Source of the DNA: a virus
DNA length: 23,956 bases
Virus record (IMG/VR): IMGVR_UViG_3300017786_000142
Coordinates: 1 to 23,956 of that record
Direction: 5' to 3' (one strand)
Positions 16,959-23,625 of the stretch are shown here, piece after piece; position 1 is the first letter of the stretch; each line of letters starts with the position of its first letter. A program made the position numbers and the translations under genes. The notes under the pieces are model-generated. The model made no database searches, had not been told where the DNA came from, and saw only the letters and a list, made by a program, of their open reading frames with translations.

Positions 16959-17393
16959 TTATTTGTTTAAATGTATTTTTACTTTGTTCCAATATATTTC
17001 TAAATTAGAACGTTTCTTTGCGTTACCGTAATTAGGGTCATCCGCATATCTCCAAGCAGAGCCACCACCATTATGTATAAAAACCAAATGTTTAGCATTT
17101 AGATTTGGTATCTTTTTAGCATAATGCATCCATACAGTTTCTGTAATGTGGTATGCCATACTTCGATTAAACACTACATCATGTGGTAAATCCTGTTTAG
17201 TAATCCTATTATAGTCTTTTAGAAAGATCGGTCGAATCTGTAAACAACCTCGTGCATCTTCTTTAACATTGATTGCATAAGGGTCAAGATTTGACTCTAC
17301 GTTTTCAACAGCAACCATAACGTCAGTTACCGTAAGTGCGGATAGATTTGCAACACTGATTAGTGCCGCTAGTATGATTTTTATTTTATTCAT
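16959..17393 (-). CDS. Secreted lytic transglycosylase-like protein
   Basis: 144 residues with a Sec signal peptide (MNKIKIILAALISVANLSA, cleavage likely near A19). The mature part has the transglycosylase/lysozyme-fold signature: E33-S34 in VENVESNLDPYAIN followed by G49-C-L-Q-I in ARGCLQIRP, i.e. E-S-x(n)-G-x-x-Q-I. E33 would be the catalytic acid. A C-terminal FIHNGGGSAWR loop fits the substrate cleft. It would cleave peptidoglycan in the periplasm. As the resident gp5 lacks a lysozyme domain, this could help lysis or wall remodelling, although it lies in the early-type block. It is shorter than typical bacterial Slt domains but contains the core. Confidence 0.65.
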   Translation of the reverse strand: MNKIKIILAALISVANLSALTVTDVMVAVENVESNLDPYAINVKEDARGCLQIRPIFLKDYNRITKQDLPHDVVFNRSMAYHITETVWMHYAKKIPNLNAKHLVFIHNGGGSAWRYADDPNYGNAKKRSNLEIYWNKVKIHLNK

Positions 17394-19031: not shown

Positions 19032-19322
19032 ATGCCAGCTGTTACAAGAATAGGAGATGCAGATGTTACCCATTGCTCAGGTATGGTAAGAGCCGTAGGT
19101 AGTCCAAATGTATTTACAAATTACATTCCAACATCTCGACAAAGTGATGTGAATACTGGACACAAGAAACCTGGAGCTCCATGTCCCGGTCATTCTGCAC
19201 CAATTGCTGTAGGTTCAAGCACAGTCTTTATTAATGGTTTAGGCTGCGGTAGAATAGGTGATGCAATATCTGGTTGTACTAGCGTTGCGGCTGGCTCACC
19301 AAATGTGTTTGCGGGCGGGTAG
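19032..19322 (+). CDS. PAAR-domain spike tip protein (gp5.4-like)
   Basis: 96 residues. The protein covers a complete PAAR domain: MPAVTRIGDADVTHCSGMVR, VGSPNVFTN, the KPGAPCPGHSAPIAVGSSTV core, INGLGCGRIGDAISGCTSVA and a final SPNVF. The repeated (A/G)SPNVF and GD(A)xx(C/G) patterns and His/Cys residues (H14/C15, the CPGH pair, C80 region) fit the zinc-holding cone that sharpens gp5/VgrG spikes (T4 gp5.4). It would cap the gp5 needle encoded at 3853-4848. No clear ribosome binding site precedes ATG (CTTAAAAAT). The 3' end overlaps a small antisense ORF by 44 nt. Confidence 0.93.
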   Translation: MPAVTRIGDADVTHCSGMVRAVGSPNVFTNYIPTSRQSDVNTGHKKPGAPCPGHSAPIAVGSSTVFINGLGCGRIGDAISGCTSVAAGSPNVFAGG

Positions 19323-19477: not shown

Positions 19478-20641
19478 TTAGAACTTCAGTCTATAACCAA
19501 CGAAGACTTTATTCTTAAATACATCAGCATCTTTATTGTATAAGTGCATTCCTTGATAACCTATTTCAGCGTAATGGTTACGATTATAGTTCCAAGTAAA
19601 AGTTATGCTTGATACAAAAATGTCTTCGACTCTTTCAAGATTAACGCCTTCGTAACGATTGTACTCAGAAAAGTATTCTGTCCGCATCCATAATCCCATA
19701 AACGAAACTTCTGTTTTTGGTGTAAATGGATACTTAGCAATTACCATTGCCTTTTGATTTTCCTTTGCATTCCAATAACCAGCACCAGAATCAGATACAT
19801 CGTAAATTAAATTAAATCCTAGAGTTGTGCCACGAGGTGTAAAGAAAGTTACATTACATCCATATACAGGACGACTAGTTGAGTATATATTTCCTGCTTG
19901 ATTTAAAATTTCTGAAAAGTGTTGACCGTACATCCCTTTAATAACCATAAAGCTATTTGGCACGTATGTTAATTGACCCGTCAGTGTACGTGAATCATAT
20001 CCGCCTCTGTTACCATTATACTCTAAATCAGACCAAGTACCTATCAGTTCAGAAATAAATCGCCTATTGTGGATTCTTTCAAGCGTTAACGTATGTGTGT
20101 GCTTGATAAAGTCACCATTTGTTAAATCATTTCCGAGTGGTAGATTGTCTGACCAAACTTTAACGTGACCTTCGTGACTATACCTAACTTTGTTGAGATA
20201 AGTATTCTGCCAAGAGATTGTAGTCTTTCCTTTATACGTAAAGAAACTTACATCCATACTATCTGCAGGATTTACTGACGCATCTACAAAATCTGAAGGT
20301 TCTCTTTCGGAATGACTAAGTGAATTAGTAGATTTAACATTTAACCTTGGGCCAAAATCATTCTCACCTTTAACTTTAATAGAACCAAAAATGAATGATT
20401 GATCATCAGCTGTTCTTTTACGAAGCTCTATTGCAGGATTAATCGTAACCCTATCTTGAAATAGCTTTCCTTTATACGTAATGTTATGAGAGTGATAAAA
20501 ACTATCTGCCTTCTCAGTACCATCTGCTTTCATAAAGATGTTATCATCATAAAAAGCACGACTAAAAAAGTTTATTTCTTGGTTAGTACCTAATCCAAAA
20601 GCTAGAGTTACCAAGCCACATAATAAAAGTAACTGTCTCAT
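19478..20641 (-). CDS. Outer-membrane beta-barrel protein (porin-like), phage-encoded
   Basis: 387 residues with a Sec signal peptide (MRQLLLLCGLVTLAFGLGTN). The mature part alternates polar and aromatic residues in 8-12 residue strands (FYHSHNITYKGKLF, HTHTLTLERIHNRRFISELI, SSITFTWNYNRNHYAEIGYQ). It ends VFVGYRLKF, with the terminal Phe expected for recognition by the BAM machinery. There is no lipobox at the cleavage site. It resembles 'outer membrane beta-barrel' proteins found with surface or exopolysaccharide systems rather than classical trimeric porins (inference). It lies 3 nt after the PEP-CTERM gene in the same late transcript. Possible roles are masking receptors, changing the envelope late in infection, or aiding release. 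Confidence 0.75.
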   Translation of the reverse strand: MRQLLLLCGLVTLAFGLGTNQEINFFSRAFYDDNIFMKADGTEKADSFYHSHNITYKGKLFQDRVTINPAIELRKRTADDQSFIFGSIKVKGENDFGPRLNVKSTNSLSHSEREPSDFVDASVNPADSMDVSFFTYKGKTTISWQNTYLNKVRYSHEGHVKVWSDNLPLGNDLTNGDFIKHTHTLTLERIHNRRFISELIGTWSDLEYNGNRGGYDSRTLTGQLTYVPNSFMVIKGMYGQHFSEILNQAGNIYSTSRPVYGCNVTFFTPRGTTLGFNLIYDVSDSGAGYWNAKENQKAMVIAKYPFTPKTEVSFMGLWMRTEYFSEYNRYEGVNLERVEDIFVSSITFTWNYNRNHYAEIGYQGMHLYNKDADVFKNKVFVGYRLKF

Positions 20642-20644
20642 ACA

Positions 20645-21280
20645 TTATTTTCTTCTTTTAATTGCTACATATAAAAACAAACAGTAACCTGTTAATAGTG
20701 CAAAAGTGTGAGGTTCGGGTATTGATGTAAGATATGTCATATCTACATTTCCTGGCCCATCCATTCGAATCGTACCTGTTCCATTTACTTTAGGATCAAA
20801 GGTTGTTATAAGACCATAATAGGTTGTGTTGGTTTCTAAATCTGCGCTTAAAGCAAAAAGTAAATCACCAACATTACTTTCGCCGGTATAATTATCATTG
20901 TCATCGTTATCTGCAAAGTATAATGGATTTGTTGGCGTTGCTAAATTTGGTTCTTCATCGTATACATAAAGCATTGTATCTGCTTTCCAATCTGGTGTGT
21001 TAGGTGCAATAAATGTATAACCTTGATTCTGAGTATAATCATTGTCTGTACCTGTATAAACGACACCATAGAATCCAACATTCTCTACTGAATATGTGCC
21101 AGTTACATCTACGGTAAATGAAGCTAATGCGTAAGCATATTCTCCGTCGTCTTCTTGTGAGCTTCCGTCAGGTCTAAGAAATTCGTATTCTTTGACATCT
21201 AATTGAAAACTTTCAAACGAAGTGATTACAGTAGAATATGCTATTAAAGGTAATAGTAGTAATGTTAATAATTTTTTCAT
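20645..21280 (-). CDS. PEP-CTERM surface protein
   Basis: 211 residues. It has an N-terminal signal peptide (MKKLLTLLLLPLIAYSTV), a Asp/Asn/Thr-rich beta-type ectodomain, and a C-terminus SIPEPHTFALLTGYCLFLYV, then AIKRRK. That end is a complete PEP-CTERM sorting signal: P188-E189-P190, a ~16-residue hydrophobic helix and a basic tail. In bacteria such proteins are cleaved and processed by exosortase and are linked with exopolysaccharide or biofilm matrix. No exosortase gene is in the window, so a host enzyme would be needed. The ectodomain (FTVDVTGTYSVENVGFYGVV) is like those of bacterial PEP-CTERM proteins. It is flanked by a 58-aa membrane protein (2-nt gap) and an outer-membrane barrel (3-nt gap). 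Confidence 0.85.
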   Translation of the reverse strand: MKKLLTLLLLPLIAYSTVITSFESFQLDVKEYEFLRPDGSSQEDDGEYAYALASFTVDVTGTYSVENVGFYGVVYTGTDNDYTQNQGYTFIAPNTPDWKADTMLYVYDEEPNLATPTNPLYFADNDDNDNYTGESNVGDLLFALSADLETNTTYYGLITTFDPKVNGTGTIRMDGPGNVDMTYLTSIPEPHTFALLTGYCLFLYVAIKRRK

Positions 21281-21282
21281 TG

Positions 21283-21459
21283 TTATTTTTTGCTGAATAT
21301 TTTACCAAGGAAACCGAATAGCTCCCCAAAAATTCCAAGTGATTTACCTAGCCAAGACTCTTTAGGTATAAACATAACAACCACAGCAAGAATGCCGATC
21401 AGGCCAATTGCTAATTCAATTAAATTCATTTTACTTGCTTGTAATATTTCTCCTATCAT
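21283..21459 (-). CDS. Small membrane protein, 58 aa, with amphipathic Gly/Phe tail
   Basis: ATG 21459 to TAA 21283. It has a short N-terminus, one transmembrane helix at ~13-33 (LIELAIGLIGILAVVVMFIP), then an amphipathic tail (KESWLGKSLGIFGELFGFLG, KIFSKK). A second ATG at 21426 would start just before the helix. The gene sits 8 nt after the acidic protein's stop and 2 nt before the PEP-CTERM ATG. The tail's GIFGELFG echoes GLFGLFGG motifs in the upstream acidic protein. A membrane-perturbing or lysis-regulating role is possible but unproven. Confidence 0.8.
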   Translation of the reverse strand: MIGEILQASKMNLIELAIGLIGILAVVVMFIPKESWLGKSLGIFGELFGFLGKIFSKK

Positions 21460-21467
21460 AGTTTTTA

Positions 21468-23090
21468 TCAGTTGTTATATGCTAACATTAGTGCTCCGGC
21501 GGGTGAGACAACTATTGCATCTATTGGTGTTATTACTTGTTCGATATCATCTATAATATCGTCTCCGCCTATGTCAGCTATTTGTACATCTTCTATAGCA
21601 ATTTCTGACATTTCTAAAATATCTTCAATGTTTATTTGAACATCCATTTCTATTTCTGCAACTTCGACTTCCACTTCTACTTCTGCAACTTCCACTTCCA
21701 CTTCTGCAACTTCGACATCAACCATTGAATGCGGTTTGATATCGTCTATTGCGTCAATGGGTTCGTCTTGTATTTCAATCTCTGGTTCTTCAGAGAGTGG
21801 CTCAGGGGCCTGTTCAGAATCAGCAACCAGTATTTCTGGTTCTTCTTCTGCAGATACTTCACTATCTTCGACCACCTCCTCTTTATTTGTTAAAAATGAA
21901 AAAAGGCCCCCGCCACTAGATTTCTTCTCTGTTATACCATTCGATTCTGCAGTATTGGTGTTTGTAGCTGATTTTGCCGTCGGTTCGCTTCCGTTAGCTT
22001 CGCTCTGAGACGTTTCCGTCTTAGGCTCCTCAGCAGACTCTTCCTCTGCTTGCTCATCTGGTACTGTGTCGTCATCTTGTGTTGGTTCCTCTCCTTGTTG
22101 TTCGTCCTCTGGCTCTTCGGATTCTTCATCATCGCCACCACCGAATAGGGCGCTGAATAATCCACCAGATTTCTTTTTGGGTTTTTCTTCTTGAGCTGGT
22201 TCCTCTTCGGCTTCTGGTTCCGACTCGTTAGATTCTTCTTCTGCTTCAGGTTCTTCTTCTGGTTCTTCGCTTTCTTCTTCAGCCTCTTCTTCTACTTCCT
22301 CAGCTGATTCTTCTTCGCTTTCTTCTTCAGCCTCTTCTTCGTCTTCGTCTTCATCATCACCACCAAATAGACCAAATAGGCCTCTTTTCTTTTTCTTCTT
22401 GGGCTCTTCTTTTTCTTCCTCTACGGCTTCCTCATTCGAATCTTCGTCCTTTGTATCAGACTCATCAGCGGCCTCAGTGGATTCTTCAGAAACTTCTTCC
22501 GTTGGAGTTTCTTCTCCACTCGATTCTGTTCCCTTAGGTAGTGTTGTAGATTCATTGATTTCCTTTTGTTCGGTTGACGGGATTGCAGTACCAGTGGTAG
22601 GGTCTATATCAATATCAAGCTCACCAATACCTACGACCGTTGTAAACGCTTCAAACGGATCGTCCCAGTTAAAATTAGGATGTTCTTCTTCGAACTCTTC
22701 CCATTTTTCTTCAGCAACTGCAACAACTTCACGTGTTTGTTCAACTACAGTATCTACTTGAAAATACGTTGCTGATGCAATTGCCATAACACCAGCAGTT
22801 CCTAGACTAGCAACTTGAGTGCCAGCATGTTCTAGGAAGCTAGGTGGTTTAGTTAATTCTGAGGTTACAGCTTCGTCAGAGCTCAATTTTATATCGACAT
22901 CATCGCCGTCACCGTCATCAAATTCAAACCCTGGTTGTGTTTCTTTCGCCACAACAACAGAAGCTTGTTTTAAAAGCTCGAGTTCTTTGATTTTACGTTC
23001 AGGGTTTCCTAACCTTCGAATGACCGATTGAGCCTGTTCAAGGGTTAGTTCTTCGTCTATGTTTGCTTTTTTCTCTTTCTCTTTAGCCAT
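21468..23090 (-). CDS. Very acidic repetitive protein, 540 aa, with three K-rich GLFxxLFGG motifs
   Basis: Start ATG 23090 (MAKEKEKKANIDEELTLEQA) with GAGG just upstream and a late promoter 11 nt before; the longer in-frame reading to 23429 would cross that promoter. Residues 1-50 form a charged helix. A hydrophobic segment lies near 90-110 (VASLGTAGVMAIASATYF). Residues ~200-450 are Glu/Asp/Ser-rich and probably disordered, broken by three basic-hydrophobic islands: KKKKKRGLFGLFGG at ~232-244, KPKKKSGGLFSALFGGG at ~304-319 and EKKSSGGGLFSFL at ~388-400. Residues ~457-485 are a VEVAEVEVEV tandem repeat. The end (VVSPAGALMLAYNN) is hydrophobic. No known family recognised. It heads the late envelope block. 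Confidence 0.85.
   Translation of the reverse strand: MAKEKEKKANIDEELTLEQAQSVIRRLGNPERKIKELELLKQASVVVAKETQPGFEFDDGDGDDVDIKLSSDEAVTSELTKPPSFLEHAGTQVASLGTAGVMAIASATYFQVDTVVEQTREVVAVAEEKWEEFEEEHPNFNWDDPFEAFTTVVGIGELDIDIDPTTGTAIPSTEQKEINESTTLPKGTESSGEETPTEEVSEESTEAADESDTKDEDSNEEAVEEEKEEPKKKKKRGLFGLFGGDDEDEDEEEAEEESEEESAEEVEEEAEEESEEPEEEPEAEEESNESEPEAEEEPAQEEKPKKKSGGLFSALFGGGDDEESEEPEDEQQGEEPTQDDDTVPDEQAEEESAEEPKTETSQSEANGSEPTAKSATNTNTAESNGITEKKSSGGGLFSFLTNKEEVVEDSEVSAEEEPEILVADSEQAPEPLSEEPEIEIQDEPIDAIDDIKPHSMVDVEVAEVEVEVAEVEVEVEVAEIEMDVQINIEDILEMSEIAIEDVQIADIGGDDIIDDIEQVITPIDAIVVSPAGALMLAYNN
21648..21725 (-). repeat. Tandem coding repeat (VEVAEVEVEVAE...)
   Basis: Repeated units built from GTGGAAGT(T/A)GAAGT-like sequence (ACTTCCACTTC on the + strand) encode alternating Val-Glu(-Val-Ala) strings. 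Several near-identical units stand in a row, so recombination or slippage could change their number in frame. Confidence 0.75.
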
Positions 23091-23101
23091 AACCTCAATT
23101 C

Positions 23102-23109
23102 TATTTATA
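23102..23109 (-). promoter_or_regulatory. Late promoter for the envelope block (23090 to 19478)
   Basis: Perfect TATAAATA on the minus strand followed by GAATTGAGGTT and ATG 23090. It is the only promoter evident ahead of the acidic, membrane, PEP-CTERM and barrel genes, which are separated by 8 nt or less. Confidence 0.82.
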
Positions 23110-23142: not shown

Positions 23143-23625
23143 ATGTTTGGTTTAATTACAATGTTATTGACAACTCTTGGGGCCACCGGCATGGGGTCGA
23201 TGCTCAAGATAGTCGCAGGCACCATACAATCAATAAACGATGGAAGAGAAGCAAAAGCAAAAAGAGAAATCGCCAGAGACCTGGCAATGTCTAACTCAGA
23301 CATTAAATTCCAACAAGCTGTATTTGGTAATAACGTTGATCCAGAGTCTAACCTTTTTACTCGTGGCACTCGTCGTATTATCGCTCTTATCGGGATGTGT
23401 AACTTTGCAACCGTCTCCATACTCTGCACCCTCTACCCCGGTGTTGAATTGGTCACCTTCACCCCACCAGAAAATAAAGAAGCAATCAAAGTGTTGTGGG
23501 GACTCGTCACCTTCCCAAGTGGAGCAGACGTCACTACCGCCATTACAACCGGACATATTTCTCTGGTCTCAGTCGCCACTTTGGGAGCGATAATTGGGTT
23601 CTATTTTACACCTGGCGGAAAGTAA
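23143..23625 (+). CDS. Membrane protein resembling 3-TM holins
   Basis: 160 residues from ATG 23143, chosen because it follows the late promoter by 5 nt; an in-frame ATG at 23059 would cross it. Hydrophobic segments lie at ~3-25 (LITMLLTTLGATGMGSMLKI), ~77-103 (IIALIGMCNFATVSILCTLY) and ~138-157 (ISLVSVATLGAIIGFYF). The first and second are joined by a charged helical region (INDGREAKAKREIARDLAMS). This order resembles the Holin_3TMs (PF11351) class, as seen in gene transfer agents and many marine phages. Holins time the release of endolysin. The family link is from the layout and not certain; the endolysin itself is not visible next to it. Confidence 0.6.
   Translation: MFGLITMLLTTLGATGMGSMLKIVAGTIQSINDGREAKAKREIARDLAMSNSDIKFQQAVFGNNVDPESNLFTRGTRRIIALIGMCNFATVSILCTLYPGVELVTFTPPENKEAIKVLWGLVTFPSGADVTTAITTGHISLVSVATLGAIIGFYFTPGGK

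Follow-up and report, generated by a model that had tools for sequence, protein, structure and literature searches.

Why would a phage carry a gene for a protein with a PEP-CTERM sorting signal, and what would such a protein do late in infection? The question is raised by a 211-aa open reading frame in a 23,956-base viral record, referred to here as the window. This gene had been described in a first-pass annotation as a PEP-CTERM protein gene in the late operon of a T4-like phage, and the name T4-like is borne out by T4-type baseplate, end-protector and single-stranded DNA-binding genes (gp6, gp25, gp5, gp2 and gp32) in the window. The parts of the gene are:

20645..21280 (-): PEP-CTERM protein, 211 aa, with signal peptide, beta-sandwich ectodomain and a tail of PEP, hydrophobic helix and KRRK (ORF; conserved family A3; model m4fa0df2e5e0c)
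20648..20725 (-): PEP-CTERM sorting tail, residues 186-211, with the PEP codons at 20711-20719 (A3 and A8 alignments)
21233..21280 (-): predicted N-terminal signal peptide, approximately residues 1-16 (MKKLLTLLLLPLIAYS)

The reading frame is confirmed to encode a PEP-CTERM-type protein with a signal peptide, an ectodomain and a three-part tail. Its boundaries are exact, its C-terminal end reads SIPEPHTFALLTGYCLFLYVAIKRRK, and the claimed PEP motif, hydrophobic helix and KRRK terminus are all present; for the proposed signal peptide, hydropathy and a modelled helix at residues 2-14 agree. The AlphaFold2 model, of modest confidence (mean pLDDT 65), is composed of this signal helix, a beta-sandwich and a C-terminal helix (residues 190-210). 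Foldseek returned weak fold matches to calcium-binding LipL32 and to C2-like, jelly-roll and yeast flocculin domains, which at a query TM below 0.5 serve as a lead only.

Comparison with curated family models, the check proposed for the original claim, divided the window copy from its relatives. The window protein, whose own tail reads PEPHTF, has no match to PF07589 at E<=10 and none to TIGR02595, and NF038129 is its only match among the PEP-CTERM family models (E=0.072). Relatives L002, L014 and L021 lie over one or both cut-offs, with 23.5, 21.9 and 21.8 bits against PF07589 (cut-off 20.7) and 21.1 and 18.5 bits against TIGR02595 (cut-off 16). The PF07589 miss of the window copy is weak evidence, because this model reportedly catches only 22% of TIGR02595 instances (PMC1569441).

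The search for similar ends in other phages, also proposed at the outset, was productive. Relatives of the full-length protein occur in 11 IMG/VR contigs, and a search with the tail alone added further ectodomain types, one of 253 aa (L110, L111) and one of the 'NGGFETGDLTGWT' type (L123, L128-L130). In total, approximately 50 viral contigs carry a PEP-CTERM-type gene, counted by contig name and including some near-identical copies from different samples, and the tail sits on at least four ectodomain types. A strict three-part tail is present in 29 of 1111 distinct reading frames of at least 80 aa from the viral loci, all 29 of them inside the gene cassette described below, and in none of the shuffled C-termini; the tail in the cassette is no chance match. 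The P, E and P of the motif are invariant in alignment A8, and PEL, PES or PEQ replaces PEP in a few members. Three subtypes (that of the window, SISILG and LITTFEFDFDE) are homologous by profile comparison, and an identical tail, ...LILGWLLFLYVATKRRTD, is present on two PEP subtypes; some tails are common to different subtypes, as if swapped by recombination. Loci L018, L034 and L036 have the same PEP tails on differing ectodomain subtypes. In podovirus-like contigs (L131-L134, L169-L175) the proteins are only 92-102 aa long and lack a signal peptide; they retain the PEP, helix and basic end, though their sequences are only 45% identical. These short proteins also share a conserved segment, VPSxPEWAxxEYDGLxYEGVQYNWDEVDYRL.

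Beyond the tail, the PepA model NF033554 matches three of five relatives (best E=2.6e-7), over approximately 140 residues in L004 and L014. The highest score among the tabulated members is 22.9 bits against a cut-off of 80 bits, and no NF033554 match is listed for the window copy. By tblastn, no relatives of the PEP-CTERM protein or of the neighbouring barrel were found in named phage genomes, and a search of phages and plasmids with the tail, a weak test for 27 residues, also found none.

It might be supposed that such contigs are host DNA or assembly artefacts. IMG/VR contigs are predictions, and two contigs of high GC content (L135, L136) have a bacterial look and were left out of the viral set as bacterial DNA. 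For the set as a whole this explanation is scarcely credible: many of the contigs, drawn from many samples and including a record of 141,669 bases, have phage structural genes flanking the cassette.

The window gene belongs to a cassette of three or four genes that unrelated phages have in common, a context that the first-pass annotation missed. On the operon strand, the order is an acidic protein, a small membrane protein, one or two PEP-CTERM proteins and, often, an outer-membrane barrel. In the window, the cassette and its immediate surroundings comprise, besides the PEP-CTERM gene:

23143..23625 (+): divergent membrane protein, resembling a holin only in size, membrane segments and position; its gene adjoins the cassette in both T4-like and large siphovirus-like phages
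23102..23109 (-): match to a T4-type late promoter, TATAAATA, 12-19 nt 5' of the first ATG of the operon (acidic gene)
21468..23090 (-): acidic protein, 540 aa, 32% D/E, probably disordered, the first operon gene; it carries the K-rich repeat GLFxxLFGG three times and has a conserved C-terminal IKPHS...SP
21283..21459 (-): small membrane protein, 58 aa, with one transmembrane segment and a basic amphipathic C-terminus
19478..20641 (-): outer-membrane beta-barrel, 387 aa, with signal peptide, 18 predicted strands and C-terminal Phe (model m8c4bba692bb9)

The IKPHS...SP end of the acidic protein is kept in most versions, including the podovirus-like ones. The small membrane protein measures 50-58 aa across contigs, and its gene lies 5' of the PEP-CTERM gene at every locus with upstream DNA read, either immediately or one small reading frame away, frequently with an ATGA overlap between the two; in the T4-like L016, L019 and L036 an extra small membrane reading frame intervenes. 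Two further genes of the window are recorded here. A PAAR-motif protein (19032-19322 (+), PF05488 E=6.9e-11), with its own TATAAATA upstream, adjoins the barrel in T4-like contigs, and a weakly SLT-like protein with a hydrophobic N-terminus is encoded at 16959-17393 (-) (PF01464 E=0.0039), a similar gene being present in the unrelated 141-kb phage.

Carriers of the cassette include T4-like, siphovirus-like and podovirus-like phages, whose head and tail genes are unrelated. T4-like carriers are the window, L013, L016-L018 and L034; lambda-like tail genes were recognised by eye in L002, L021 and L026-L033; L003, L005, L009-L012 and L110 form a separate terminase/portal lineage; and the podovirus-like contigs were named by eye from head-closure-like neighbours. 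Another carrier is the record of L020 (141,669 bases), in which tblastn found no match to the 34 Pelagibacter phage Mosig genes tried. That record (L040-L047) is apparently a large siphovirus, with a terminase only distantly like those of named phages (<27% identity).

Late expression, the other half of the original claim, is supported by the late-promoter match that precedes the first ATG of the operon. Nine further loci, near-copies among them, have this octamer or CTAAATA at the corresponding place, and in the T4-like phages the cassette begins at such a match. The window holds eight late-promoter matches against 2.98 expected, a number that 2 of 100 shuffles reach. The case for a PEP-CTERM protein encoded in a late phage operon is strong, and the window phage is not alone in having one. 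These observations also bear on the idea that the genes are recently captured host genes, carried as passengers with no function for the phage. In favour of this idea, PEP-CTERM proteins are a typically bacterial class that evolves rapidly (PMC1569441). Against this, gene order and overlaps are conserved in unrelated phages, a late-promoter match is present, the species-genome collection holds no cellular relative of the PEP-CTERM protein and its sole match to the barrel lies on a phage contig binned into a Porticoccaceae MAG; the passenger explanation is accordingly very improbable.

Foldseek aligns the model of the barrel with outer-membrane porins and TonB-dependent barrels, at E-values as low as 4e-8, and the barrel's signal peptide, even number of strands (18 predicted) and terminal aromatic residue (Phe) point to a location in the outer membrane. 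Searches with the barrel retrieved 25 viral contigs, and a PEP-CTERM-type gene lies 5' of the barrel in 22 of the 22 barrels with upstream DNA, one of these genes ending in PES and some standing as two in tandem. The barrel is present in most contigs and in some phages is not beside the PEP-CTERM gene. Barrel relatives weakly match PF10082 (BBP2_2; best E=3.7e-4, best phage score 19.9 bits against a cut-off of 23.7), and the window barrel has no match to this model. Identity with the PEP-CTERM-associated barrel TIGR03016 was ruled out (hhalign probability 0.4%).

That the phages encode an outer-membrane barrel complete with signal peptide invites another explanation, namely superinfection exclusion without sorting, in which the barrel and the PEP-CTERM protein would replace or mask a phage receptor, like the porin Lc of phage PA-2. 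The PEP-CTERM ectodomains are more divergent than the barrel, and a cassette common to unrelated phages that possibly compete for one host would suit this role. However, late expression fits early exclusion less well and the adjacent barrel is missing in some phages, leaving this an improbable account.

The main rival dispenses with exosortase altogether. The cassette would be a lysis or egress device, the C-terminal helix serving as an inner-membrane anchor, and the PEP-CTERM protein, small membrane protein and barrel together breaching the envelope in the manner of a spanin/holin set. The neighbourhood lends itself to such a reading: the cassette adjoins the holin-like protein and, in the window, also lies near the weakly lysozyme-like SLT gene; the small membrane protein combines a transmembrane segment with an amphipathic basic end and often overlaps the PEP-CTERM start; the acidic protein carries K-rich GLFxxLFGG repeats; and podovirus-like members retain the tail though they lack a signal peptide. 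However, a plain anchor would need neither a near-invariant PEP nor similar tails on different ectodomains, the ectodomains resemble surface adhesins rather than spanin rods, and searches with the cassette genes turned up no lysis family. For the adjoining membrane protein, PHROG returned no match. We consider a lysis device unlikely, although it ranks as the most serious competitor of exosortase sorting.

If the tail is a sorting signal, an enzyme to read it has to be found. No exosortase is encoded in the 13 phage records searched, which is not proof for whole genomes because several of these are fragments; sorting would therefore depend on a host exosortase, and an exosortase-bearing host, as had been predicted, is implied. 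The one link to such a host is the Porticoccaceae MAG G005, which serves as a species genome and contains both a cassette phage contig (L037, PCCK01000047.1) and an exosortase (E=3.4e-40), binning being weak evidence of infection. This exosortase adjoins a BBP2_2-like barrel and regulators that by eye look to be of PrsK and PrsR type, and the PEP-CTERM matches of the MAG are confined to the phage contig. On the other side, no tail of the phage style came up in 398 Pseudomonadota genomes other than on the phage contig itself, and Pseudomonadales tails differ in style, reading VPEPGTLALLGLGLAGLG.. The host of the cassette phages is therefore probably a lineage other than the Pseudomonadota genomes scanned; our guess would be Verrucomicrobiota. 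Named-phage relatives of the phage genes are distant and their hosts varied.

The best explanation, to which we assign a probability of about 0.6, is that the window encodes a true phage PEP-CTERM protein, made late and handled by a host exosortase, which acts with its cassette partners in remodelling the host surface or matrix. The proposed role of EpsH-type exosortases is to cleave PEP-CTERM proteins, which are then moved to the outer surface (PMC1569441), and overexpression of PepA causes exopolysaccharide to stay cell-bound (PMC9850573). Given the PEP-CTERM anatomy of the phage proteins and their PepA-like relatives, we propose that the phage uses the host exosortase for placement at the surface. 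The signal peptide would export the protein and the C-terminal helix would hold it in the inner membrane until the host exosortase recognised the PEP and cleaved there. The ectodomain, an acidic beta-sandwich whose relatives resemble the flocculation protein PepA, would then pass to the outer membrane or the exopolysaccharide. Towards the end of infection the surface layer would thus gain an adhesin-like protein. Its partners would be the acidic and small membrane proteins, joined in most phages by the barrel on the outer-membrane side. Most likely, the purpose would be to alter the surface or matrix of the host late on, in a way that favours release of progeny or keeps out further phages.

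Retention of the three-part tail while ectodomains diverge or differ favours exosortase sorting. Counting against it are the miss of the window tail by both curated models, the failure to find matching tails in any of the host genomes scanned, the podovirus-like members devoid of a signal peptide, the PEL, PES and PEQ variants and the occasional absence of the barrel. That many unrelated marine phages carry such tagged late proteins suggests that they borrow a host sorting enzyme and remodel the envelope late. The broader proposition, that a late cassette common to phages with three kinds of tail hijacks the host exosortase and sends viral proteins and a barrel to the surface or matrix, thereby controlling release or exclusion, is one on which we would place even odds.

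Exosortase sorting has so far been seen as bacterial, with functions largely unknown; given a viral cassette centred on its substrates, phages would be seen to use it as well. Conservation of this cassette would also point to a role of the surface layer for or against phages. Since PEP-CTERM tails are more alike within than between species (PMC1569441), the cassette tails give a handle on the hosts of these marine phages, and tail style could help to identify the host if sorting is confirmed. In the literature searched on PEP-CTERM with phages or viruses, no title or abstract reports a phage-encoded PEP-CTERM protein, the paper that seemed closest being concerned with host genes. If the present reading is correct, these would be, to our knowledge, the first viral exosortase substrates.

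The sorting signal itself is of a known kind; what appears new is that a conserved viral cassette employs it. In common with the PEP-CTERM/exosortase (EpsH, XrtA) systems of Gram-negative bacteria, the phage proteins have a signal peptide, a PEP motif, a hydrophobic helix and a basic end, and relatives pass the curated models. They also share the bacterial habit of carrying one tail style on several ectodomains (PMC1569441). They differ in being phage-encoded within a translationally coupled late operon, the bacterial genes usually forming single-gene operons, and in the lack of an exosortase from the phage records searched. The likeness to PepA of Zoogloea and Aquincola, which extends beyond the tail in two relatives, is by sequence profile, far under the curated cut-off, and concerns a phage gene. 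The phage barrels and the G005 barrel (22.9 bits) match the same C-terminal part of PF10082, all below its cut-off, and both kinds stand beside PEP-CTERM or exosortase genes. Phage PA-2 encodes the porin Lc, an outer-membrane barrel. Compared by description, Lc and the cassette barrel are alike as phage-encoded outer-membrane barrels, and the cassette barrel is set apart by its place in a late operon, coupled to PEP-CTERM genes.
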